A stretch of DNA of 12,944 bases from Rudanella sp. (GTDB lineage Bacteria; Bacteroidota; Bacteroidia; Cytophagales; Spirosomataceae). Shown here in pieces: positions 701-12,944 of the stretch. The notes under the pieces were generated by a model. The model made no database searches, was not told where the DNA came from, and worked only from the letters and a program-made list of their open reading frames with translations. The position numbers and the translations under genes are program-made. Where the stretch lies: NCBI GenBank assembly GCA_026785985.1, contig JAJAYX010000658.1, positions 1 through 12,944 on the forward strand. Reading direction: 5' to 3'. Numbering within the stretch: position 1 is the first letter of the stretch; the number at the start of each line of letters is the position of its first letter.

Positions 701-1621
701 ATGAGTAATTACCTCCAAACATTTCTGAATGGCTACAGCGGGTATTTCAATTACCTGCTGAACGAAATAATTCACCCTGCCTGGCCGAATTATTTCTACA
801 CCCTGATTGGTATCTCGTTACTGGTTTGGGGCCTGGAGTTATTGTTCCCCTGGCGCAAAAACCAACCCGTTTTCAGGCAGGATTTCTGGCTCGACACGTT
901 CTATCTATTTTTTAACTATTTCCTATTTTCACTCATTGCCTATAATGCTTTTTCGGAAGTGGGTGTGCTGGCATTCAGGGGCTTACTGGCCCTGCTTGGC
1001 ATCAGAAATCTGGTTGCCATCAGCGTTGCCGACCTGCCCGGCTGGGCACAGTTGTTGATTTTGTTTCTCGTCCGCGATTTTGTGCAGTGGAACATTCACC
1101 GGCTGCTGCACCACTCACCCTGGTTGTGGGAGTTCCATAAGGTTCACCATTCGGTAGCGCAGATGGGTTTTGCGGCCCACCTGCGCTATCACTGGATGGA
1201 AACCATTGTGTATCGGACGCTGGAGTACGTGCCGCTGGCTATGATTGGCTTTGGGCTACAGGATTTTTTTGTGGTTCACCTCTTCACACTGGCGGTGGGC
1301 CACCTCAACCATGCCAACCTTTATTTGCCCATTGGACCGCTTCGGTATGTATTCAACAGTCCGCAAATGCACCTTTGGCACCATACCGACGCACTGCCCC
1401 ACAACCGCGAGGGAGTCAACTTCGGCCTGACATTGAGCGTGTGGGATTACCTGTTTCAAACCGCCTACATCCCCTTCGAGGGTAGTCATATCAAACTGGG
1501 GTTTGGTGGTATAAGTCGATTCCCCAAAACGTTTTTTGGGCAGTTGGTCTATCCCTGGCGCAAATCCGTAACCCCAAAAAAAACGAAGGAATTGGCCGAG
1601 GAAAGCCAGGCCCTTTTTTAG
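701..1621 (+). CDS. Sterol desaturase / fatty acid hydroxylase superfamily membrane protein
   Basis: A 306-residue integral membrane di-iron oxygenase of the fatty acid hydroxylase superfamily (sterol desaturase type). Such enzymes hydroxylate or desaturate lipids in the inner membrane. The histidine clusters that bind the two irons are all visible: HRLLHH (133-138), HKVHH (146-150), HLRYH (160-164), HLNH (201-204) and HLWHH (224-228). Hydrophobic segments lie near residues 30-50, 65-90, 112-125 and 177-200. The ATG at 701 is the only good start after the transposase remnant. The substrate cannot be told from sequence; similar proteins act on sterols, carotenoids, sphingolipids or alkylglycerols. 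It is the first gene of the co-oriented group containing sulfur-oxidation genes, with 98 bp to the likely start of the next gene, so co-transcription is possible but not shown. No truncation or missing His motif is seen. Confidence 0.88.
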   Translation: MSNYLQTFLNGYSGYFNYLLNEIIHPAWPNYFYTLIGISLLVWGLELLFPWRKNQPVFRQDFWLDTFYLFFNYFLFSLIAYNAFSEVGVLAFRGLLALLGIRNLVAISVADLPGWAQLLILFLVRDFVQWNIHRLLHHSPWLWEFHKVHHSVAQMGFAAHLRYHWMETIVYRTLEYVPLAMIGFGLQDFFVVHLFTLAVGHLNHANLYLPIGPLRYVFNSPQMHLWHHTDALPHNREGVNFGLTLSVWDYLFQTAYIPFEGSHIKLGFGGISRFPKTFFGQLVYPWRKSVTPKKTKELAEESQALF

Positions 1622-1719: not shown

Positions 1720-2816
1720 ATGGAATCACCTGACACAAACCCTTTTGAACAAAATCTAAAACGAAGTTTCTGGATGCTAACCAGCCTGATGGCCCTTGCC
1801 GCCATCTTGCTGACGACCTTAGTTTTTTTGCAATGGCGCATGGCCAACCCGCCCGCTGCTGAACCTGTTGCTCTGGTAATACCAACCGTTGCCAAAGACA
1901 CCAATTTCGTGAACCTCTGGACGGCCCCCTCCGATTGGCGGCTCAGTCGGTTAGCCCCGCAGGAGCAGGAACTAGTTCGCTATGGCCGCGAACTGATTGC
2001 CCACACCGCCGACTACTTAGGGCCGAAGGGTTCTGTGGCGCATATCTCCAACGGCATGAATTGCCAGAACTGCCACCTCAACGCCGGTACGCAGCCCTGG
2101 GGAAATAATTATGGCGCGGTGCAAGCCACCTACCCCAAATTTCGGGAGCGGTCGGGTACGGTAGAGAATCAAGTGAAGCGGGTGAACGACTGCATCCAAC
2201 GGAGCCTGAACGGTTGTGGGCTGACTCCACAAGCCACGAAATGCGGGGGATTTTGACATACATCAAATGGCTTGGTACCGATGTTCCCCGCAAAAAGATG
2301 CCCCGTGGGTCGGGAATTTTCAAGTTAAAGGGCCTCAAACGAGCCGCCGACCCCGACAAAGGACTGGCCGTTTACACCCAAAAATGCCAAAGCTGTCATC
2401 AGGCTTCGGGAGCGGGTTTGCTGGTCGCTGGTACCAGCAGTTATGTTTATCCACCACTCTGGGGATCAAATAGTTATAATATAGGCGCGGGTTTGTTTCG
2501 GCTGTCGAATCTGGCAGGATATGTGCGCTACAATATGCCGCTGGGTGCCACCTACGAACGCCCTCAACTAACCGACGAAGAAGCCTGGGATGTGGCCGCC
2601 TACATCAATTCGAAACCCCGACCCACCCTCGATCTGAGCCGCGACTGGCCTAATCTGGCGGGCAAACCGTTCGACCATCCGTTTGGCCCCTTTACCGACC
2701 CGTTTTCAGAAAAACAACACAAATACGGCCCCTTCAAACCAATCAAAGACTGGAAAGAAACTCACAAGAAAAAGTCTCCCAAGAAACTCCTTAAAAACCA
2801 ACTGGCTCAGTTATGA
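1720..2816 (+). pseudogene. tsdA: TsdA-like dihaem cytochrome c (thiosulfate dehydrogenase), interrupted by a frameshift
   Basis: TsdA enzymes oxidise two thiosulfates to tetrathionate in the periplasm. The first part (1720 to about 2214) has a membrane anchor (about residues 17-38 from the ATG at 1720), the first haem site CQNCH at 2062-2076, and a Cys in RVNDCIQRSLNG about 39 residues later, matching the Cys expected to ligate haem 1 in TsdA. The second part (about 2217-2816, one frame away) has the second haem site CQSCH at 2385-2399, YPPLWG, NMPLGATYE with a candidate Met ligand, DEEAWDVAAYINS and the terminal HKYGPF. Reading across the junction, NG-x-WADSTSHEM lines up with the family's NGKALPEDSREM-type segment if a single base is missing near 2212-2220. 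Either the gene is broken or the assembly lacks one base. A GTG at 1648 would give a longer N-terminus, but ATG 1720 places the anchor more typically. The stop overlaps the next gene's start. Confidence 0.78.
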
Positions 2817-3241
2817 AAAATCAACTGTTTTCCCTGCTCATTGCCCTACTGTTGCTCAACATCTCGGCACAAGCACAGACCAAACCCGCCGATAAACAAC
2901 ACCGGATCATGTTTCATTTGGCCTCCCCCGACACACTGGTGTACAAGGGCCTGATTCGACAACTCAACAACGTGCTCGATTATTGGCCAACTGCCACCCT
3001 CGAAGTGGTTATCCACAGCGGAGGCATCGACTTTATGCGCAAGGATCGGTCGAAGCTGGAGCCGGAGATTCAGGCCCTGAAAAACAAAGGCGTTGTGTTT
3101 GCCGTCTGCCAAAATACCATGAAGCAACAGAAACTCACCAAAGAGCAGATTCTAAGTCAGGCCATTTTTGTTCCCGTCGCCATCGCCGAACTCACCCTGA
3201 AACAGGAAGAAGGCTGGTCATATATCAAAGCGGGGAATTAA
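2813..3241 (+). CDS. Exported DsrE/DsrF-like family protein
   Basis: A 142-residue protein with a clear signal peptide (hydrophobic core about residues 5-18, ending ISAQAQ with likely cleavage near residue 20-22) and a DsrE/DsrF-like domain. Family features visible are the HLASPD strand-turn after residue 34, IHSGG at 67-71, VCQNTM with Cys99 followed by the helix KLTKEQIL, then VPVAIAEL and the terminal EGWSYIKAGN. DsrE-type proteins bind or relay sulfur on a conserved Cys; Cys99 is the only cysteine here and sits where such a Cys is expected. The ATG overlaps the cytochrome's TGA as ATGA, suggesting translational coupling. With a signal peptide it should act in the periplasm, next to the cytochrome and the SoxB-like protein. 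Many exported members of this family are uncharacterised, so a sulfur-carrier role is inferred from context. Confidence 0.85.
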   Translation: MKNQLFSLLIALLLLNISAQAQTKPADKQHRIMFHLASPDTLVYKGLIRQLNNVLDYWPTATLEVVIHSGGIDFMRKDRSKLEPEIQALKNKGVVFAVCQNTMKQQKLTKEQILSQAIFVPVAIAELTLKQEEGWSYIKAGN

Positions 3242-3260
3242 GTTTTTTGGCAGGCTGAAG

Positions 3261-4979
3261 ATGCGAAAATCCTACTCTTCAATTATCCATCAAACTATGC
3301 AATCAAGACGCGATTTTTTACAGAAAAGCCTGCTGGCCGGGGCAGCAGCCGCCGTGCCGCTGGCGACTCCGGTTTTGGCTGGGACCGAGACCAATTCAGG
3401 AACCAACGCGGCTCCGGTTGCTCCCGAAAGTGGCACCATCACGCTGCTGCAAACCACCGACGTTCACTGTCAGCTTCACGCCCACGACGAACTATTTTGG
3501 GAAAACGACAAACTTACGTTTCGAAAAGCGGGTGGCTACGCTCATTTGGCTACCGCTATCGACAGCATCCGTAAAAAGAACCCCACGAACACCGTCCTAA
3601 TCGACACGGGCGATATGTTTCAGGGCAGTATGCTCTCCGTTAAAACAGAAGGCAAGGCATTTTTGCCCCTGCTCAATGCCCTGAATTACGATCTGTTTTT
3701 ACCCGGTAACTGGGAGGTCGTTTATTACAAAAAAGCCATGCAGCACCTGATGGGTGGCCTTCAGGCTCCCAAAGTCTGCACCAACATGCACCACGACAAG
3801 GGCGAGGGGGCTAAAGGCGAACTAATTTTCCAACCCTATCAAACCATGCACCGGCTGGGCATCAAAATTGGTTTCCTCGGTTATACCGACCCGCTGGTGC
3901 CGATTCGTCAATCGCCCCTCTACAGTAAGGGAATCGTATATGCCAAACCCGAAGAAAGCATCAAATATTGGGTCGATGTGCTTCGGAATCAGGAACAATG
4001 CGATTTTGTGATTGTGCTGGCTCACCTCGGACTATCGCAGCAAATTGCCCTCGCCAATAACCCTGACGGTGAAGGCGTTGACTACATTTTTGGGGGCGAT
4101 ACCCACGAGCGCGTTCGTAAACCCATTGTTTGTAAGTATGCCAAAGTAGTTGAACCCGGTGCATTTGGCTCCTTCGTCGGGCGGCTCGACATTACGGTTA
4201 AAGATGGCAAAATGACGGGCAACCGCTATGAACTGATCGAAGTTGATCCTAAAAAATTCAAAGCCGACCCGATTGTGCAGCGATTGGTGGAGCAGATCGA
4301 AGCCCCTCATAAAACCGACATAGACCGAATTATCGGCTACAGCACCGAACCACTTTACCGCAATTTCGTTGTCGAAAACACCATCGACACCCTCATAACC
4401 GATGCTTTGATGTGGAAAGTAAAACCCGACGTGGCCCTGTCTAACGGCTTTCGGTTTTGCCCCCCGCGCACGGCTGGTTCCGATGGCCGGGTGGCCATCA
4501 CCGAAGGCTATTTGTATGATATGCTCCCTTTCGATGCGCCGGTACGAACAGGCAAAGCCACCGGAAAACAGATCACCGAATGGCTTGAGCGTGAACTGCA
4601 AAATGTGTTTGCGCAGGATGCCACCAAGCGATTCGGCGGCTGGGTGGTGCGTTTCAAGGGTATGGAAGTGGAATTTAAAGCCTTTGCCCCGGCCAATGAG
4701 CGCGTGCAGGCGGTGCGCATCGGTGGCCAACCCCTCGACCCCGCCCGCACCTATACCATTTGCGCCTGCGAACGCGAAGGTGACCCGGTCGATATGCTCT
4801 GCCGGATGCGGGGTGTCAACGAAGGAAAAAACACCATGGCCACACTCCATTCGTCGGTGAAAGAGTATTTGCAGGCCTTTCCACTTGTCAGTCCAAAGGC
4901 ACCCCGAATGGCCCGGATTCTGGACGGACCCCAAACCCTGTTGACCCAGGTGTATGGTGTGGACTATAAATTTTCCTGA
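3261..4979 (+). CDS. Tat-exported SoxB-like / 5'-nucleotidase-family metallophosphoesterase
   Basis: A 572-residue binuclear metallophosphoesterase with a C-terminal 5'-nucleotidase domain, the architecture shared by 5'-nucleotidases and the Sox thiosulfohydrolase SoxB. A Tat signal is clear: [13 protein letters not shown] at 15-27, with AGTE near 40 as the likely cleavage region. Metal-site motifs are TTDVH (D67, H69), DTGDMFQGS (D118), GNWEVVYY (N150), AHLG (H255) and GGDTHE (D280, H282). Two deviate from classical 5'-nucleotidases: the catalytic His of GNHE is Trp151, as in the GHWE of SoxB, and the first His of GGHTHE is Asp280. The C-terminal domain shows [12 protein letters not shown] (372-383), SNGFRF (394-399) and FGGWVV (458-463). 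The ATG at 3297 would put RR at residues 4-5 and is a plausible alternative start. It lies 19 bp after the DsrE-like gene. A thiosulfate-pathway role is favoured by these neighbours, but nucleotidase activity is not excluded. Confidence 0.82.
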
Positions 4980-4995
4980 TAAATAGTTCGTTGGG

Positions 4996-5040
4996 TGTGA
5001 CAATTGTCACGGAACAGCGAAACTCGGCTCCCTACTTTTG
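4996..5040 (+). promoter_or_regulatory. CRP/FNR-type operator plus TAnnTTTG promoter box before the transporter pair
   Basis: TGTGACAATTGTCACG at 4996-5011 contains a perfect 14-bp palindrome (4997-5010) and matches the CRP consensus TGTGA-N6-TCACA at all but the last base. Downstream, TACTTTTG at 5033-5040 fits the Bacteroidota -7 box exactly, while no TTTG lies at the usual -33 spacing. With transcription starting near 5043, the palindrome is centred near -40, the position used by class II activators that replace a missing -35-type contact. It lies 17 bp after the SoxB-like stop. The transporter genes therefore probably have their own activated promoter. The regulator is not in the window and is inferred. 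Confidence 0.6.
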
Positions 5041-5087
5041 GGTTACCATTAACAGTCGTGAGAGGAGGCTGTGTATTCCTTAAGATT

Positions 5088-5663
5088 ATGTCTTTTTTAG
5101 AGTTTATTCGCCAACCCTGGCCCTGGTACGTAGCCGGGCCTCTGATCGGCCTGACCGTGCCAACGCTGTTACTGATTGGCAACAGATCGTTCGGCATTTC
5201 ATCGTCGCTGCGGCATATTTGCGCGGCCTGTTTACCAGCCAACATCTCCTTTTTCAAGTACGATTGGAAAAGGGAAGCCTGGAACCTGTTTTTCGTAGTG
5301 GGGATTCTGCTGGGCTGCTTTGTGGCCACCTATTTCCTGTCGAACCCAAACGACATAGTGATTGCTCCGGCCACAGAAACGGCTCTGCGGGCGTTTGGTA
5401 TTCAGGACTTTAAGGGACTGATGCCCGCTGATCTGTTTGCCACGGCAACTATTTTTACCCTGAAAGGCTTGTTTTTCTTTGTCATTGGCGGCTTGCTGGT
5501 TGGTTTTGGCACCCGCTGGGCGGGTGGCTGCACATCGGGTCACGCCATCATGGGGCTTTCTAATCTGCAATGGCCATCGCTGGTGGCTACCTGCTGCTTC
5601 ATGATTGGCGGTTTTGCCATGACGCACCTGTTACTGCCATTCATTTTCAAACTGGTTCTTTAG
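5088..5663 (+). CDS. YeeE/YedE family sulfur-compound transporter subunit (PmpA-like)
   Basis: A 191-residue membrane protein of the YeeE/YedE (TsuA/PmpAB) family, which imports thiosulfate or related sulfur species through a channel lined by conserved cysteines. The hallmark [20 protein letters not shown] is at 141-160, with Cys148 the conserved sulfur-binding candidate. Further cysteines are at 45, 48, 77, 169 and 170. Hydrophobic segments lie near residues 12-30, 66-83, 124-141 and 164-188. At about half the length of one-piece YeeE proteins, it should need a partner, supplied by the next gene 13 bp away. The ATG at 5088 is chosen over upstream in-frame TTG codons because those would lie within or before the promoter; no Shine-Dalgarno is next to it, which is normal for this phylum. 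Transport of thiosulfate specifically is inferred from its family and neighbours. Confidence 0.85.
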
Positions 5664-5676
5664 TCAATCTCAACGT

Positions 5677-6180
5677 ATGCAACCAATAACTACAACGAAC
5701 CCCCGTGCCACCGAAAATCGGGAGATAGGGTGCGACGCGCCGAACGTGAGCAAAAAGTCGGAAAGCGGGTTGGCCAATCTGAAATATATGCTGGTTGGGC
5801 TGGCTTTTGGAATCGTGTTTGTGAAAGCCGAAATCATTTCCTGGTTCCGCATTCAGGAGATGTTCCGGTTTGATTCGTTCCATATGTACGGCGTAATTGG
5901 CAGCGCAGTGATGGTAGGAATGCTCTCCGTATTTCTTATTAAGCGATTTAATATCAGGACATTAAATGGCGAACAAGTATATATTATGCCAAAGACCTTC
6001 AACAAAGGACAGATTTATGGCGGCTTGCTGTTTGGTTTTGGCTGGGCCATCACGGGAGCTTGTCCGGGGCCACTGTTTGCCCAAATTGGAAGCGGGTTTT
6101 GGGCAGTTCTGGTTACGCTGTTGAGTGCCATTGCCGGTACGTGGCTCTACGGTTATTTCCGCGAACGGCTGCCCCACTAA
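5677..6180 (+). CDS. DUF6691-type YeeE/YedE family membrane protein (PmpB-like)
   Basis: A 167-residue membrane protein forming the second half of a split YeeE/YedE transporter. The signature FGFGWAITGACPGPLFAQIG is at 119-138, with Cys129 in the conserved GACPGP position. Membrane segments lie near 35-52, 70-88, 112-130 and 140-160. The N-terminal 30 or so residues are polar and poorly conserved in appearance (NPRATENREIGCDAP), so translation could also begin at a later codon, but ATG 5677 is the only Met before the first membrane helix except M38. It follows the PmpA-like gene by 13 bp in the same operon. The two proteins would form one pore with the cysteines of both halves facing the path. 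The substrate is inferred to be thiosulfate or another reduced sulfur compound. Confidence 0.85.
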   Translation: MQPITTTNPRATENREIGCDAPNVSKKSESGLANLKYMLVGLAFGIVFVKAEIISWFRIQEMFRFDSFHMYGVIGSAVMVGMLSVFLIKRFNIRTLNGEQVYIMPKTFNKGQIYGGLLFGFGWAITGACPGPLFAQIGSGFWAVLVTLLSAIAGTWLYGYFRERLPH

Positions 6181-6351: not shown

Positions 6352-7806
6352 TCAAACCAGAATTCCCTTCACCAGCTTGCCTTCCACATCGGTGAGCCGG
6401 AAACGTCGCCCCTGAAATTCGTAAGTCAGTTGTTTGTGATCCACGCCCAGCAGGTGCAACAGGGTAGCCTGAAAATCATGTACATGCACCGGATCACGGG
6501 CGATGTTGTAGCCAAACTCATCGGTTTCGCCGTAGGTGATGCCCTTCTTTACACCCCCGCCCGCCATCCACATCGTGAAGCAGCGCGGGTGATGATCGCG
6601 CCCGTAATTATCTTTGGTTAGCTTCCCCTGTGAGTAGTTCGTCCGGCCAAATTCGCCCCCCCACACCACCACCGTATCGTCTAACAATCCCCGTTGCTTG
6701 AGGTCAATGACCAGCGCGGCCGAAGCTTGATCGGTGGCCCGGCATTGTTTGGTCAGGCCAGCGGGCAGGTTGCCATGCTGGTCCCAACCTTGGTGATACA
6801 ATTGCACAAATTTAACGTCTCGTTCGAGCAATCGACGGGCCATCAGGCAGTTAGCAGCAAACGTGCCCGGCTCGCGGGCATCGGCTCCATATAAATCGAA
6901 GACCCAGTCGGGTTCACTGGAAAGGTCTGTCACATCGGGAACAGAAGTCTGCATCCGAAACGCCATTTCATACTGTGCAATCTGGTTGGCAATCTCTGGG
7001 TCGCCGAAGCGGTCGGCCTGCGCCTGGTTGAGTTCGTTCAGCGCGTCGAGCATGGCCCGTCGGTCGATGCCTTTATAACCATCGGGATTGTTGAGATACA
7101 ATACCGGGTTGTTGCCCGACCGAAACTGCACTCCCTGATGTCGGGAGGGTAAAAATCCGTTGCCCCACAGCCGGGCATAAAGCGGTTGGTCCTGCGGGGC
7201 GTTTTTGGAGACCAGCACAATGAAAGCGGGCAGATTCTGATTGGCCGAACCCAGCCCATAGCTCACCCACGCGCCAATGCTGGGCCGACCCGCCAACTGA
7301 TTCCCCGTCTGAAAAAACGTCAGAGCAGGGTCGTGGTTGATCTGCTCGGTATACATCGACTTAATGAAACACAGCTCATCGGTTACCCGGCTTGTGTAGG
7401 GCAACAATTCGCTGACCCAGGCCCCGCTTTGGCCGTGCCGGGCAAACGCATAGGGCGACTTCACCAGCGGCAAAGCCGATTGCTGGGCACTCATGCTCGT
7501 TAGCCGCTGTCCTTTCCGCACCGAATCGGGTAAATCCTGCCCGTGCATTTTAGCCAGCATTGGTTTGTAGTCGAACATTTCCAGTTGCGAGGGGCCACCA
7601 CTCTGAAACAGGTAGACAACACGCTTCGCTTTGGGAATTCGGTGTGGTATTGGTTCGGTATTCGGGCCGGATGAGGGGGAGGCTGGTTCCCGTTTTGGCT
7701 CAATTAGCGAACTGAGGGCTATTGACCCTAATCCCAGCGATGCGTTTCGGAGGAAGGCCCGGCGGTTGAGCGTGTCGGCAATAATCTGATTCAATGGCTG
7801 TTGCAT
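6352..7806 (-). CDS. DUF1501 family protein with Tat signal
   Basis: A 484-residue DUF1501 protein, a family related to the alkaline phosphatase/sulfatase fold but without a known reaction. The N-terminus carries a Tat signal: NRRAFLRNASLGLG at 14-27 then a hydrophobic stretch to 34. Family landmarks are YLFQSGGPSQLEMFD (65-79), GAWVSELLPY (128-137), QLYHQGWDQHGNL (335-347), VVVWGGEFGRT (379-389), YGRDHHPRCF (401-410) and the His-rich DPVHVHDFQATLLHLLG (438-454). The paired acidic and His residues in these motifs resemble a metal site. Length is normal for the family. It begins 5 bp after the stop of the DUF1553 gene, so the two are an operon, an arrangement typical of DUF1501. Tat export suggests it folds with cofactor or metal before secretion. 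Substrate unknown. Confidence 0.9.
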   Translation of the reverse strand: MQQPLNQIIADTLNRRAFLRNASLGLGSIALSSLIEPKREPASPSSGPNTEPIPHRIPKAKRVVYLFQSGGPSQLEMFDYKPMLAKMHGQDLPDSVRKGQRLTSMSAQQSALPLVKSPYAFARHGQSGAWVSELLPYTSRVTDELCFIKSMYTEQINHDPALTFFQTGNQLAGRPSIGAWVSYGLGSANQNLPAFIVLVSKNAPQDQPLYARLWGNGFLPSRHQGVQFRSGNNPVLYLNNPDGYKGIDRRAMLDALNELNQAQADRFGDPEIANQIAQYEMAFRMQTSVPDVTDLSSEPDWVFDLYGADAREPGTFAANCLMARRLLERDVKFVQLYHQGWDQHGNLPAGLTKQCRATDQASAALVIDLKQRGLLDDTVVVWGGEFGRTNYSQGKLTKDNYGRDHHPRCFTMWMAGGGVKKGITYGETDEFGYNIARDPVHVHDFQATLLHLLGVDHKQLTYEFQGRRFRLTDVEGKLVKGILV

Positions 7807-7811
7807 ACGAA

Positions 7812-10800
7812 TTACCGCTTGGTGATGAAAGCATCTGAGTTCATAATGGTGCTGGCGACAACGGTTCCCGCTGCCAGAGCGGGCAAATCGGTTGGGGGGC
7901 CTGACCGATAGGCTCCTGCATTCAGCCAGCCACTCATTTTGCCCGGCGATTGCCGGAATTTTTCCCGTTCCGATTCATACAAACGGGTCAAAATGGCCAG
8001 TTCGCGGGCCACCGGGCGACGGGCTGTCAGGATTCGATAGGTATACAGGAGCCGCTCCCTGGGTGTGGCATAGCGGGTAGCTGCCCGTTGGGCAATCACC
8101 CGGGTGGCTTCCACAAACTGCGGATCATTGAGCAGGATCAGAGCCTGCAGGGGGGTGCTGGTTTTTTGCCGCTGTACCAGGCAGTAACTCCGCGAGGGTG
8201 CGTCGAAGGTGTTCATGGATGGAGGTGGGTTGGTGCGTCGCCAGAAGGTGTATAGACTTCGGCGGTACAGGTTTGCGCCCGTATCAGTCTCATAAACGGC
8301 CTGGTTGAGATCCCACAGACCATCGGGTTGGTACGGTTTCACCGATTGACCACCCATCCGGCGCGACAGTAAACTGCTGGAAGCCAGTGCATGATCACGA
8401 ACCATTTCGGCGGTTAGCCGAACCGACGGGCCACGGGCCAACAGTAAATTGTCGGGATCATTTCGGAGTAATTCGGGGGTTGCCTGCGACGATTGGCGGT
8501 AGGTGGCCGACATGACAATGAGTTTTTGCAAGGCTTTCACGTTCCAGTTGTGGCCCGAACCCGTTGACTCCCGGAAGGTAACAGCCAACCAGTCGAGCAG
8601 TTCGGGGTGAGTGGGCATGCCGCCCTGGTTGCCAAAATTGTTGGCGGTTTTGTGGATACCAGTACCGAAATAGGTCTGCCAGTAGCGGTTCACAATGACC
8701 CGGGCTGTCAGTGGATTATCGGGATGGAGCAACCATTGGGCTAACCCCAGTCGATTTTTGGGAAAATTGCGAAAGGGCAATACACTGGCTGGTGCATCCG
8801 GCTGAACAATTGGCCCGTGCGCATCATAAACACCCCGTTTGAGGATGTAGGTAGGTCGCCGGGTTTTCCGTTCGTCCATCACCATCAGCTCGGGAATGGT
8901 CTCCACGATCTGGTTTCGCTTTACCCGGAGTTCCTGTAGAGTAGCCGCTTGCCGAGGATACGTTTTCGACACGTTGGCCAGAAAATACGGCATCAGATCG
9001 TTGGTCGTAAACGTCGGTAGGGGAGTAGTGGCGCCCATGGTGCGCACGAGTTGGGCCACATCGGGGGCCGTCAGTTCACGGGCGTAAACAACCAGTTCGT
9101 CCATGTACCCGTTTTTAAAGCCAGATCCGCGCATGTCGGCACCCAATTGCAGACCGGGCTGCACCCCCCCAATCGGGTTATCCTGACTCAGCAAAATGTC
9201 TTTGTAAAGGTTGTCGGCTTCGGTAACGACCTGGGCCAAACGACCATCCACGTAGAGTTTCAGGCCATTGGCTTTACTGGAGCCGTTGTAAGTCATCATC
9301 AAGTGAACCCACCGCTCTTTGGGTAATGGTTGCCGGCTCACCCGGATTAGGGTGTTGTAGGGCCAGGTATGGGCCATAAGCAGTTCGGCCCGGCCGTCGC
9401 GCAGGTTCAGGAAATACCCCCGGAAGTTGTATAAAATGTCACCCATCCCTTTATGGAAAATCACCCCTTTGTCGAGCAGCTTCGGGATGTGTACCCATAA
9501 ACCCACCGAGAACGGTTGCGCCCGGTCGAAAATGCCGACTTTCCCCAGCGTCAATACATCGTCGCCGTTGGATTGAAACGCCTGCCCCACTTTCCCCGCC
9601 ACCAGCTTTGGGTCAATCACCACGCCCTTATCCTTTGCTGACACGCTGTTTGGAAACTGCCCATTCACCAGTTTATCAAACGAAAAATGCGCCTGTAATG
9701 CCTGTTTATAGTCGAAGGGGGGCAGGGCAGTGTTGGTTGCCTGCCAGGCAGCGAAGGCGGGTTTTTCTTTATTAACGGTCTGATGAAGAGCTGTTTCTGT
9801 TGCTTTTATCTGCCTGTCCAGAAACGTCAGCAGGCTGTCGTGTTTGGTTTCGGTGAGCAGCAGAGTGGGCACCGGCATGGCGTTGTCCCAGGAAATCTGT
9901 CCTGCTTCGTCGATGTTGTTGAAAAAGCTGAACAGGCTGTAGTAGTCCTTCTGTGAAATGGGGTCAAACTTGTGATCGTGGCAACGGGCGCACTCCACCG
10001 TCAGCCCCAGAAAGGCTGTACTCACGGTGTTAGTCCGGTCGGCGACATATTCGACCCGGAACTCTTCGTTGATGATCCCTCCCTCCATATTCTGGGAGTG
10101 GTTGCGGTTGAAAGCCGTAGCCAGTCGTTGCTCCTGAGTAGGCCGGGGCAGCAGGTCACCCGCCAGTTGCCAGGTCGTGAAACGGTCGAACGGCATGTTC
10201 TGATTAAACGCGTTGATCACCCAGTCGCGCCAGGGCCACATGGGTCGATAGCGATCCACGGTATAACCATGCGTATCGGCAAAGCGCGAGACATCGAGCC
10301 AGTCGGTGGCCATTTTCTCACCATAATGGGGCGATTTCAGCAGCCGGTTCACCACGGTTTCGTAGGCACTGGGCGAGCGGTCGGCCAGAAACACATCCAG
10401 TTCCCCGATGGTTGGGGGCAGGCCCGTGAGGTCGAGCGTGACGCGCCGGAGCAGGGTTTCGCGGTCGGCTTCGGGGGCTGGTTTGAGCTGGGCTTTTTCC
10501 AGCGAACTGAGTACAAAATAGTCAATTTGGTTTTTGGGCCAGCTTTTATTGGCGACTACGGGCAGATCAAATTGTTGGGGTTTGAGCAACGCCCAATGGG
10601 GTTTGTATTCGGCACCCTGCTCGATCCACTTCATCAGCACGGCTTTCTCATAAGTCGTCAGAAAGCGGTTCGACGAAGGTGGGGGCATCAGTTCCGAGGT
10701 GTCGGATGTGGTGAGCCGGTAGAACACCTCGCTTTGAGACAGGCTACCCGGCACAATGGCGTGTTTGCCTTTGGCCTTTTTCAATGCGGCATAGGCTCCT

Positions 10801-11081
10801 TCGGGCGTGGCCAGTTCAAGCCCTGCTTTCTGAGCCGCTTTGTCGGGACCGTGGCAGAAAAAACACTTATCAGACAGAATGGGCTTAACGTGCCGATTGT
10901 AGTCGATCTGTGTGGGCAACTGACTATCGAGCCGGGCAATTTCAGCGGGTTTATCGACCCTACCACAGCCCATTACCAGCCAGAGGCTTACGAAAGCCAG
11001 CCATCGACCCAATCGTTGAACGGACGAAGTACGTTTATGTGGATAGTTGGGCATCAGGCTGGTTGAACGTGGCTTATACAT
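7812..11081 (-). CDS. Dihaem PSCyt1-DUF1549-LamG-DUF1553 lipoprotein
   Basis: A 1089-residue secreted multidomain protein of the Planctomycete cytochrome type. A lipobox LVMGC at 35-39 after a hydrophobic stretch indicates a lipoprotein with Cys39 lipidated. Domains in order: PSCyt1 (about 55-165) with haem site CFFCH at 73-77; DUF1549 (about 183-390) with a second haem-like site CARCH at 364-368 followed by DHKFDPI; a LamG/concanavalin-like domain (about 463-675) with FSVGLWVHIP, WVHLMMTYNG and LYVDGR; and DUF1553 (about 775-1040) with NPLTARVIVNRYW (789-801) and STPLQALILLNDPQFVEA (975-992). LamG domains often bind glycans, so an extracellular redox role on a polysaccharide is possible, but no reaction is known for the family. 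The start could be Met10, which would shorten the region before the signal. It heads the operon with the DUF1501 gene. All domains look intact. Confidence 0.9.
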   Translation of the reverse strand: MYKPRSTSLMPNYPHKRTSSVQRLGRWLAFVSLWLVMGCGRVDKPAEIARLDSQLPTQIDYNRHVKPILSDKCFFCHGPDKAAQKAGLELATPEGAYAALKKAKGKHAIVPGSLSQSEVFYRLTTSDTSELMPPPSSNRFLTTYEKAVLMKWIEQGAEYKPHWALLKPQQFDLPVVANKSWPKNQIDYFVLSSLEKAQLKPAPEADRETLLRRVTLDLTGLPPTIGELDVFLADRSPSAYETVVNRLLKSPHYGEKMATDWLDVSRFADTHGYTVDRYRPMWPWRDWVINAFNQNMPFDRFTTWQLAGDLLPRPTQEQRLATAFNRNHSQNMEGGIINEEFRVEYVADRTNTVSTAFLGLTVECARCHDHKFDPISQKDYYSLFSFFNNIDEAGQISWDNAMPVPTLLLTETKHDSLLTFLDRQIKATETALHQTVNKEKPAFAAWQATNTALPPFDYKQALQAHFSFDKLVNGQFPNSVSAKDKGVVIDPKLVAGKVGQAFQSNGDDVLTLGKVGIFDRAQPFSVGLWVHIPKLLDKGVIFHKGMGDILYNFRGYFLNLRDGRAELLMAHTWPYNTLIRVSRQPLPKERWVHLMMTYNGSSKANGLKLYVDGRLAQVVTEADNLYKDILLSQDNPIGGVQPGLQLGADMRGSGFKNGYMDELVVYARELTAPDVAQLVRTMGATTPLPTFTTNDLMPYFLANVSKTYPRQAATLQELRVKRNQIVETIPELMVMDERKTRRPTYILKRGVYDAHGPIVQPDAPASVLPFRNFPKNRLGLAQWLLHPDNPLTARVIVNRYWQTYFGTGIHKTANNFGNQGGMPTHPELLDWLAVTFRESTGSGHNWNVKALQKLIVMSATYRQSSQATPELLRNDPDNLLLARGPSVRLTAEMVRDHALASSSLLSRRMGGQSVKPYQPDGLWDLNQAVYETDTGANLYRRSLYTFWRRTNPPPSMNTFDAPSRSYCLVQRQKTSTPLQALILLNDPQFVEATRVIAQRAATRYATPRERLLYTYRILTARRPVARELAILTRLYESEREKFRQSPGKMSGWLNAGAYRSGPPTDLPALAAGTVVASTIMNSDAFITKR

Positions 11082-11307: not shown

Positions 11308-12564
11308 TTACAAAACCCCTGATCGTGTATAAATGAGGCAGTCTACACCATTCCGTCGTTCAAACCGATAGTTGGGCATTGTTCGATACGGGGTTAAACT
11401 GGCTTCAAATGTTTCGTAGTCCGATAGCCCTTGTTTTCGCATCGCTTCCCAACCGCTGCGTAGTTCATCCAGCGCGATAACATCTTCGCCGATTTCGTCG
11501 GTAGCAGCTTTAGGCTGGGGTGCTTTGTAGGTAGGTTGAGCCGCTTTCACAGCTTCCAGTTCATTGACTAACTGATTGGTCATTAAGGCTTTATAGATAG
11601 CTCCAGCCAGTGAACGAATCCGGCCTTTGGTCTGTGCCTGTTCATAGTAGATGAGCACAAACCGGATGTATTCTTCGGCTAGTTTACCCTGCCGGTAGCG
11701 GTCTTTTATGTCGTGTAGGGATTTAAGAGAAATCCCCAGTTCAGTCAGTTTTTGTTGAACGCCATCCGGTAATTCCGTGTCAATTCGGGCCACCACCACT
11801 GGCCTCAGCAACTGAAACTGAATGCTCACCACCGACTTGCCGTCTTTGATCGGTTTGTACTCAAAAGCCATATCGGTGGTGGCGATTTCCTGTTGGGAAA
11901 CATCCAGAACAAAGCGTTTGAAATCAGCGAAATTGGTGTACTTCCCCGTCAAATGAAACATATGCTTCATCTCCGCCAGGCCTACGTCGATGGTGTCACT
12001 GTGAAAGGCCGACAGTTTGAGCAGCCAATAGACGCGAAAGGAGTAAAAGCTGCGAAACTCGATCAACGTTAACTCTTGGGCCACCGAAAAATCACCCCTC
12101 AATTCCAGCAGGTACGGCTTCACAAAGTTGTTAAACTGGGCCATCACGTGCCCCGATTTTTCTTTGTATCGACAGGTTGACATAATCGGATTGCTGACAA
12201 TCTCGCGAATACCCCGTTCGTCTTTTGATTCCACCGTGATGGTTCGGCCCGACAACCGGATAACCGCTTTTTTGATTTGCGAGTAGGTCTTGCCCCCTAC
12301 TTTATCTTCCGGGTATAACTCGCTGACGGGAATCCGATATGTCGAAAATTCTTTATCGCCCCGGTTTATGCGGGCAAGCATGGCAATAAATAACCGCATT
12401 TCCAGCAGCGACATATCATATTGCGCCCTTATCAAATCGTTGTGTTGGGCAACAATACGGTCGGGTCGGTTTTCGGGAAAGCCAATTTCCAGTTGAACAG
12501 GCAGTTGTTCGGTTCGGTTTTCTGTGTTCTCGTTGGTAGCCATCGGAAGTTGCTGTGTCGCCAT
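11308..12564 (-). CDS. Plasmid replication initiator, Rep_3 (RepB-like) family
   Basis: A 418-residue initiator of the Rep_3 (Initiator Replication protein) family. These proteins bind iterons as monomers to open the origin, and often repress their own gene as dimers. The first winged-helix domain spans about residues 35-150: QHNDLIRAQYDMSLLEMRLF (40-59), ARINRG, YRIPVSELYP (76-85) and KPYLLEL. The second spans about 155-255: FYSFRVYWLLKLSAF (173-187), then LAEMKHMFHL and FKRFVLDVSQQEI. The C-terminal 150 residues (RYRQGKLAEEYIRFVLIYYEQA onward) form a helical extension of the kind seen in Bacteroidota initiators. ATG 12564 is used; Met8 is an alternative. Iterons lie about 180-380 bp upstream, the classical arrangement of iteron-regulated plasmids, which supports a replication role and gives the window its plasmid identity. 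No truncation is seen. Confidence 0.92.
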   Translation of the reverse strand: MATQQLPMATNENTENRTEQLPVQLEIGFPENRPDRIVAQHNDLIRAQYDMSLLEMRLFIAMLARINRGDKEFSTYRIPVSELYPEDKVGGKTYSQIKKAVIRLSGRTITVESKDERGIREIVSNPIMSTCRYKEKSGHVMAQFNNFVKPYLLELRGDFSVAQELTLIEFRSFYSFRVYWLLKLSAFHSDTIDVGLAEMKHMFHLTGKYTNFADFKRFVLDVSQQEIATTDMAFEYKPIKDGKSVVSIQFQLLRPVVVARIDTELPDGVQQKLTELGISLKSLHDIKDRYRQGKLAEEYIRFVLIYYEQAQTKGRIRSLAGAIYKALMTNQLVNELEAVKAAQPTYKAPQPKAATDEIGEDVIALDELRSGWEAMRKQGLSDYETFEASLTPYRTMPNYRFERRNGVDCLIYTRSGVL

Positions 12565-12740: not shown

Positions 12741-12944
12741 TGACGGTACTTTCCTCGTATTTACCGATAGAGGGTCAGGACACCCTTCACTAAAAACACC
12801 TTAAACAGGCTGGAAACAGTGATTTGACGGTACTTTCCTCGCAGGTGACGGTACTTTCCTCGCAGGTGACGGTACTTTCCTCGCAGGTGACGGTACTTTC
12901 CTCGTAGTTGACGGTACTTTCCTCGCATTCAGACGGTACTTTCC
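12741..12944. repeat. Iteron array, consensus TGACGGTACTTTCCTCG
   Basis: Six exact copies of a 17-bp iteron start at 12741, 12825, 12846, 12867, 12888 and 12909. A seventh with first base A starts at 12931 and is cut by the window end. Copies from 12825 to 12909 repeat every 21 bp with 4-bp spacers (CAGG three times, TAGT once). The isolated first copy lies 84 bp before the second, which is four periods of 21. All have the same orientation. Such phased arrays bind Rep_3 initiators on one face of the helix and set copy number. The array probably continues past the window. Confidence 0.9.

Follow-up and report, generated by a model that had tools for sequence, protein, structure and literature searches.

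SoxB normally needs the carrier protein SoxYZ, and this raises the question of what a SoxB-like protein may do where no such carrier is encoded beside it. The question is posed by a 12,944-bp stretch of DNA, referred to here as the window, which is one complete contig (JAJAYX010000658.1; C658) of a Rudanella sp. draft genome (GCA_026785985.1; 891 contigs, 72% complete). Five co-oriented genes on the + strand (1720–6180) encode, in order, a cytochrome, a DsrE protein, a SoxB-like protein and two YeeE-family proteins, with a 4-bp overlap followed by spacings of 20, 25 and 14 bp. The gene families, order and orientation proposed in an initial annotation of the window were borne out by the coordinates and by the succession of Pfam families (SoxA-TsdA_cyt-c/Cytochrom_C, DsrE, Metallophos + 5_nucleotid_C, Sulf_transp, and Sulf_transp/DUF6691).

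1720..2816, + strand: TsdA-type dihaem cytochrome gene (Pfam), with a frameshift near 2215-2223 and open reading frames (ORFs) at 1720-2256 and 2214-2816
2813..3241, + strand: exported DsrE-like protein with a single Cys, Cys99 (Pfam DsrE)
3261..4979, + strand: SoxB-like metallohydrolase of the twin-arginine translocation (Tat) type, class A (Metallophos + 5_nucleotid_C; GNWE, FRFC and GGDTHE motifs; Tat motif)
5004..5663, + strand: PmpA-like half of a YeeE-family sulfur transporter (Pfam Sulf_transp; TsuA C-terminal part; Cys176 in GGCTSGH, Cys73)
5677..6180, + strand: PmpB-like half (Pfam DUF6691/Sulf_transp; Cys129)

The five genes are read here, with a probability of about 0.6, as a mobile version of a module for thiosulfate oxidation in the periplasm of Bacteroidota, a variant of the route that leads from TsdA to SoxB by way of tetrathionate. 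Family scans of the 11 window proteins detected no Sox carrier and no member of the SoxA, SoxX, SoxC or SoxD families, in agreement with the initial annotation.

Identity of the SoxB-like protein

The window protein, in which the Tat motif expected from the initial annotation was found, belongs to a group of related proteins termed class A. It scored 270 bits on the SoxB equivalog model (TIGR04486), well below the cut-off of 550 bits that defines SoxB, compared to 829–858 bits for true SoxB proteins of the same phylum. The model was matched by all 34 aligned class A members (E ≤ 1e-3), and a profile of these 34 members scored 144 bits on a PDB SoxB and 136 bits on the nucleotidase 3ivd; therefore, scores alone cannot decide between SoxB and a nucleotidase.

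Motifs and phylogeny were more discriminating. The nucleotidase GNH[ED] motif reads GNWE in 85/85 class A proteins, and the corresponding residues read HW[ED] in SoxB and in clade B, a sister clade of class A with shorter proteins. From the alignment to PDB 2WDC, we take the Trp of GNWE to replace the nucleotidase catalytic His. At the position of the nucleotidase GGxR-type motif, class A has FRFC; with GNWE and FRFC, class A departs from the catalytic His in GNHE and the GGxR-type motif of UshA/CD73-type 5′-nucleotidases. An Arg of the FR[WFY] type and a GG motif are common to class A, clade B and SoxB. In a 61-row tree, class A, clade B and an orphan sequence (locus L154) occupied one side (support 100/96) with SoxB next (100/97), class A did not fall within the SoxB clade, and class C and other nucleotidases fell outside. 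A 39-row tree, which omits a partial UshA, L154 and 20 class A rows because of long branches or for speed (all kept in the 61-row tree), grouped class A, clade B and SoxB (100/98). On these 39 rows, the approximately unbiased (AU) test rejected a grouping of class A with nucleotidases (p = 0.005) and disfavoured class A with SoxB to the exclusion of clade B (p = 0.03). A nucleotidase identity was thus rejected by motifs and AU test, and the SoxB-like label of the initial annotation withstood the comparison with ordinary nucleotidases. By sequence, class A is best classed as a SoxB-side metallohydrolase, neither a nucleotidase nor a true SoxB.

The comparison with SoxB of the Sox system (TIGR04486; PDB 2WDC) reveals likeness over most of the protein, including the Trp at the nucleotidase His position and the Arg and GG motifs, and differences at two aligned positions, 150 and 280, that we presume from the alignment to 2WDC to be metal ligands. 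Position 150 is Asn in class A and in nucleotidases and His in SoxB, while position 280 is Asp in class A alone and His in every other sampled group, so that the chemistry of class A may differ from that of SoxB. A further difference lies in Cys503 and Cys514, which were present in 32/32 sampled class A rows and in L154, and absent from the 7 sampled SoxB rows and from the clade B rows. These are two of six conserved class A cysteines (window residues 70, 173, 247, 400, 503 and 514). An internal cysteine, Cys70 or Cys400, was considered as a sulfur carrier; the case is weakened, as Cys70 varies, and Cys247 and Cys400 are both absent in the deepest class A branch (L127, L128, L173). The orphan L154 (240-2057, − strand) is a GNWD metallophosphatase on a long branch that joins the side of class A and clade B. 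For the residue counts in class A (85), DsrE (47), TsdA (66) and the transporter halves (52 and 47), duplicates (L022, L024, L025) were removed and only ORFs above length limits, such as 450 amino acids (class A) and 120 amino acids (DsrE), were used. Broken genes such as that of L045 are therefore absent from these sets, as is any DsrE gene that ORF calling overlooked; the window was included in every set except that of TsdA.

It is very unlikely that class A is a periplasmic nucleotidase-like phosphohydrolase whose place in a sulfur island is incidental. The nucleotidase-like Asn150, the annotation of class A genes on three plasmids (two from Runella, one from Pontibacter) as bifunctional metallophosphatase/5′-nucleotidase, and a few class A genes with neither tsdA nor dsrE nearby (such as L054, L055 and L104) would fit this role, but the rejected tree topology, the replacement of GNHE and of the GGxR-type motif, and a linkage to tsdA in most loci (see below) argue against it.

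Distribution of the module and of Sox genes

When one genome per species was scanned, relatives of the SoxB-like gene were confirmed at 268 loci, of which the best 80 (60–80% identity) were kept. Almost all of these 80 (79) were titled as Bacteroidota, including Spirosomataceae, Saprospiraceae, Chitinophagales, Flavobacterium, Daejeonella and others. The exception, a bin under the name Streptomyces griseus (L081), has a class A gene of the Bacteroidota type and is probably a mislabelled metagenome-assembled genome. For 52 of the 80 loci, at least 5 kb was available on either side of the SoxB-like gene (full context), and neighbours were sought in these by tblastn within 8 kb. A tsdA gene was found at 46/52 loci, on the same strand at 45 of them. 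The other frequent neighbours were MBL-rhodanese (39), PmpA-like (38), PmpB-like (38), rhodanese (37), dsrE (34), OprD (30), TauE (24), Crp (19) and SQR-like (11) genes; the MBL-rhodanese and rhodanese counts overlap because both queries contain rhodanese domains. Several of these frequent partners, namely the OprD porin, MBL-rhodanese, rhodanese and TauE, are absent from the window. In a family-centred set, matches at 48–81% identity were obtained in 8/38 relatives, excluding the window's own genome.

The gene order is therefore not unique to the window. Matches to the SoxB-like protein occurred in 273/72,556 plasmid records (E ≤ 1e-5), only two of which exceeded 60% identity: Runella rosea unnamed6 and Runella slithyformis pRUNSL04. 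On either plasmid the order, with a few other genes interspersed, is TauE, MBL genes, cytochrome c (TsdA), DsrE, SoxB-like, OprD, YeeE and DUF6691. On Pontibacter akesuensis plasmid Paks1 (47% identity), the SoxB-like gene shares one stretch with cytochrome c, DsrE and sterol desaturase genes and with two more genes related to SoxB. The module is chromosomal in L038, L063 and L094 (3 of the best 80), as their contigs exceed 1 Mb. It is thus widespread in Bacteroidota and little-noticed, and the wording of the initial annotation, a reduced plasmid-borne module, is not supported as a description of its nature; the window copy is smaller than both Runella plasmid copies.

SoxB-related genes of different clades also cluster with one another, as seen for L160, L161 and L173: clade B genes lie close to clade C genes in L160 and L161, and Pontibacter Paks1 has all three clades (A, B, C) inside a 7-kb stretch. 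On the Novosphingobium plasmid pSA3, a clade B SoxB-like gene (L176, 7992-9434) lies near genes for YeeE/DUF6691, a FAD oxidoreductase, TauE, DsrE and a sulfite oxidase, with no TsdA-type cytochrome c annotated over 17 kb of a gene table that is incomplete.

The presence of Sox genes was explored in a phylum set of 296 genomes. Class A was sequence-confirmed in at least 14 of these (13 and genome G231), a lower bound because at most 4 candidates per genome were scored on the SoxB model. SoxB exceeded its cut-off in 14/296 genomes and SoxA in the identical 14; SoxY and SoxZ exceeded theirs in the same 34 genomes, which included all 14 with true SoxB. Among the class A genomes, SoxY, SoxZ and SoxA were found in 0/14, compared to 14/14 for the true-SoxB genomes (SoxX, SoxC and SoxD were not searched for), such that SoxYZ was not detected as a genome-encoded substrate carrier for class A. 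In 9 of the 14 there were weak matches to the SoxA model, for which cytochromes of the TsdA type are the probable source. In the family-centred set, SoxY was found in 0/39 genomes, without a positive control there. No complete sox cluster elsewhere was found to set against the initial annotation, though the window's own genome is 72% complete. The arrangement reported for Erythrobacter, TsdA together with a SoxB-domain protein and no SoxYZ, is accordingly that of the class A loci (46/52 with TsdA; 0/14 genomes with SoxY or SoxZ).

Cytochrome, DsrE-like protein and transporter

The cytochrome is of the TsdA type, as initially annotated, but does not occupy a single reading frame. The window cytochrome is FRAMESHIFTED: homology to three relatives follows frame 1 until ~2214 and resumes in frame 3 at 2223. 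It scored 26.2 bits on SoxA-TsdA_cyt-c, slightly below the 27-bit cut-off. Both halves were contained in one ORF in 66/68 distinct relatives from the fetched loci. The exceptions were L048, in which the gene is interrupted by the contig end, and L045, near a contig start, in which the upstream part of the cytochrome was not found and the SoxB-like gene, too, is divided between two ORFs. All 66 single-ORF relatives possess both CxxCH motifs and the NDC cysteine, which is the conserved haem 1 ligand; the window copy has the same motifs and ligand, divided between two frames. A relative (L030) matched the thiosulfate dehydrogenase 4wqc in the PDB at 140 bits. An assignment to SoxA was rejected, as TsdA but not SoxA is among the five PDB matches.

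Recent decay and an assembly error are indistinguishable here as causes of the frameshift, and with the tsdA frame broken, the window copy may be a partial module or carry such an error. That the copy is decaying and its plasmid module non-functional is a real possibility, if the less probable one. Beyond the frame switch near 2215-2223, it is favoured by the lack of the OprD and MBL genes that the Runella plasmids have and by a transposase remnant at the left end of the contig. Conversely, the cytochrome halves are otherwise stop-free and retain their CxxCH motifs, the four downstream genes are open along their full length, and a single-base assembly error would give the same picture.

The DsrE-like protein, described at the outset as exported and with a single Cys99, has a signal-like N-terminal helix (residues 2–21; structure model confident, mean predicted local distance difference test score 92.5) and one Cys. 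Cys99 was found in 47/47 neighbour DsrE proteins and was invariant in a 41-row alignment. A hydrophobic N-terminus occurred in 43/47 neighbour proteins and in 92/95 long homologues, 66 of the latter having just one Cys beyond residue 25. The DsrE type is associated with class A, as it was present in 8/14 class A genomes compared to 12/282 others in the phylum set (E ≤ 1e-18, p = 2e-7), a search that scored 13 candidates per genome so that 8/14 may be low, and in 8/9 compared to 7/30 genomes with and without class A in a nearer set. At 29/52 full-context loci, no more than 1 kb separated dsrE from the class A gene (tblastn).

These patterns suggest the exported DsrE as a plausible substitute for SoxYZ as sulfur carrier. 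The strict form of this proposal, in which TsdA or tetrathionate would load Cys99 with a thiosulfonate, class A would free sulfate, and PmpAB would take the sulfane sulfur from DsrE as a true functional replacement of SoxYZ, is entertained only tentatively. The invariant Cys99, the exported form, the close linkage and the genome co-occurrence speak for it. To our knowledge, the known DsrE carriers are cytoplasmic, which counts against it, as do the 18/52 full-context loci whose fetched DNA gave no dsrE match by tblastn; DsrE is therefore not an obligatory carrier for the whole family, unless another protein or a distant gene substitutes. A chemical precedent is archaeal DsrE3A of Metallosphaera, which is described as forming a Cys-S-thiosulfonate from tetrathionate, in a DsrE3A/TusA system of thiosulfate transfer (PMC4175335). 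This tetrathionate-reactive Cys models the role predicted for Cys99, with the difference that DsrE3A, as described there, has two Cys and the window protein a single Cys and a signal-peptide-like N-terminus.

The transporter that had been called a split YeeE/YedE does consist of two genes, but it is not a broken one: it is also two genes in relatives, and it has the form described for PmpA and PmpB, two short YeeE-family subunits proposed to pair, with one key Cys apiece (PMC11582611). Cys176 and Cys73 of the PmpA-like half were both present in 52/52 sequences and Cys129 of the PmpB-like half in 46/47, with one gap. The window halves, at 219 and 167 amino acids as called, are longer than the ~130 amino acids described, and the PmpA-like half has the additional invariant Cys73. 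In the account given of Hyphomicrobium, no link of PmpA/PmpB to sulfur oxidation was seen (PMC11582611).

Proposed pathway, plasmid setting and significance

In the proposed module, TsdA would convert two thiosulfates to tetrathionate and pass electrons to the respiratory chain, and the class A enzyme would hydrolyse the terminal sulfonate as sulfate, either from tetrathionate or from a thiol carrying its thiosulfonate group. PmpAB would import the remaining sulfane sulfur, which in hosts with an MBL-rhodanese persulfide dioxygenase could be oxidised to sulfite and exported by TauE. DsrE Cys99 would probably serve in the periplasm as acceptor or relay of the thiosulfonate or the sulfane group, without being needed everywhere. 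We infer every reaction and every hand-over in this scheme, with thiosulfate conversion, sulfate release, sulfane uptake and sulfite export modelled on the precedents of E. flavus (below), DsrE3A and PmpAB.

A TsdA/SoxB route without SoxYZ has already been published for Erythrobacter flavus 21-3 (PMC7608252), and the absence of SoxYZ is therefore not itself new. In that report, the Sox complex is stated to be absent, TsdA makes tetrathionate, and a SoxB-domain protein acts next; deletion of tsdA abolishes thiosulfate use, and deletion of soxB raises tetrathionate, with zero-valent sulfur undetected in liquid and slight on plates. The E. flavus SoxB is annotated ‘bifunctional metallophosphatase/5′-nucleotidase’, the annotation also borne by the Runella plasmid class A genes, and as in many class A loci an MBL-rhodanese sulfur dioxygenase is described in the same cluster, such enzymes being reported to oxidise sulfur in E. 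flavus (PMC7608252). Sets of tsdA and soxB are said to occur in Bacteroidetes also (PMC7608252). The differences are that E. flavus is an Alphaproteobacterium for which the main text makes no mention of DsrE, which also counts against DsrE as a full SoxYZ replacement, and that class A is marked by motifs of its own (GNWE, GGDTHE), with 79 of the 80 kept loci titled as Bacteroidota. The same report places three SoxB-domain genes in one cluster of E. flavus (PMC7608252).

Several points weigh against the reading of the window as a mobile thiosulfate-oxidation module. The SoxB score is far below cut-off and the class A profile hardly separates SoxB from a nucleotidase; Asn150 and Asp280 differ from SoxB; no biochemistry of class A proteins was found in open-licence literature; 6/52 full-context loci lack TsdA within 8 kb; and the window tsdA is frameshifted. 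Two other SoxB-domain genes of E. flavus are reported as deletable with sulfur globules unaffected (PMC7608252), and a SoxB-like domain alone is therefore no proof of role. The E. flavus SoxB itself may belong to class A, to clade B or to neither, and clade B could be the nearer; the Erythrobacter protein was not named among the best 120 of 2957 clade B homologues.

Two further readings concern the purpose of the module. An alternative role in detoxification or assimilation, in which thiosulfate, tetrathionate and polysulfide arising from sulfide would be cleared with no net electron-transport role, is unlikely; it would suit the rhodanese, MBL-rhodanese, SQR-like and TauE neighbours, but a membrane-anchored dihaem TsdA would pass electrons to the respiratory chain. 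A bolder extension of thiosulfate oxidation, rather doubtful at present, is a carrier-bound oxidation in Bacteroidota convergent with Sox, in which the exported DsrE Cys99 would stand in for SoxYZ and a TsdA-family loader for SoxAX, a sister clade of SoxB with a distinct set of metal ligands would free sulfate, and the whole set would be plasmid-mobile.

The remaining features of the window describe its setting.

2-638, − strand: remnant of an ISL3-type transposase (two overlapping ORFs with the Zn-ribbon part and the final half of the DDE domain)
701..1621, + strand: fatty-acid hydroxylase/sterol desaturase family gene (Pfam; occasional module partner)
6352-11081, − strand: a DUF1501 gene and a PSCyt1/PSCyt2/laminin-G/PSD1 gene
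11308..12564, − strand: plasmid replication initiation protein (Rep; NCBIfam RepM/RepE matches, below cut-off)
12741..12944, no strand: iteron array with a 21-bp unit (one outlying copy, tandem copies from 12825, up to the contig end)

A whole plasmid, or part of one, from a Spirosoma-type host is very likely what the contig represents, because the Rep is 55.6–58.0% identical to those of three Spirosoma plasmids, the iterons adjoin the Rep gene at the right end, and the transposase remnant, which lacks the part between the Zn-ribbon and the DDE half, lies at the left end. The plasmid location given in the initial annotation is thereby supported. Elsewhere in the same genome, a TauE gene and then the start of an MBL-rhodanese gene lie at the end of contig C767, and C241 opens with the remaining part of a gene of this kind. 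In 7/52 full-context loci, tblastn placed a fatty-acid hydroxylase gene no more than 8 kb from the SoxB-like gene. A gene of the sterol desaturase family is also part of the Pontibacter plasmid sulfur island, and another is located two genes away from an MBL gene on Haliscomenobacter pHALHY01. The DUF1501 and PSCyt1/PSCyt2/PSD1 families are best known in Planctomycetes; relatives of the DUF1501 gene were found in 5/72,556 plasmid records, with identity up to 70% (Catenovulum). An Rfam search of the window gave no matches, and a promoter and terminator scan gave chance levels only.

No description of the class A clade and its motif set, of its link to exported DsrE and PmpAB across Bacteroidota, or of its plasmid carriage was found in open-licence literature. 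Class A genes, which on three plasmids are annotated as nucleotidases, would probably escape surveys that ask for a sox cluster or for a SoxB score above the curated cut-off. Should the module function in the proposed way, Bacteroidota of fresh water, soil and sludge (Runella, Emticicia, Flavobacterium, Saprospiraceae) would include many unseen users of thiosulfate and tetrathionate, and this trait could move via plasmids. The module would also offer a clean test case of whether a SoxB-type hydrolase works without SoxYZ, and on which substrate.

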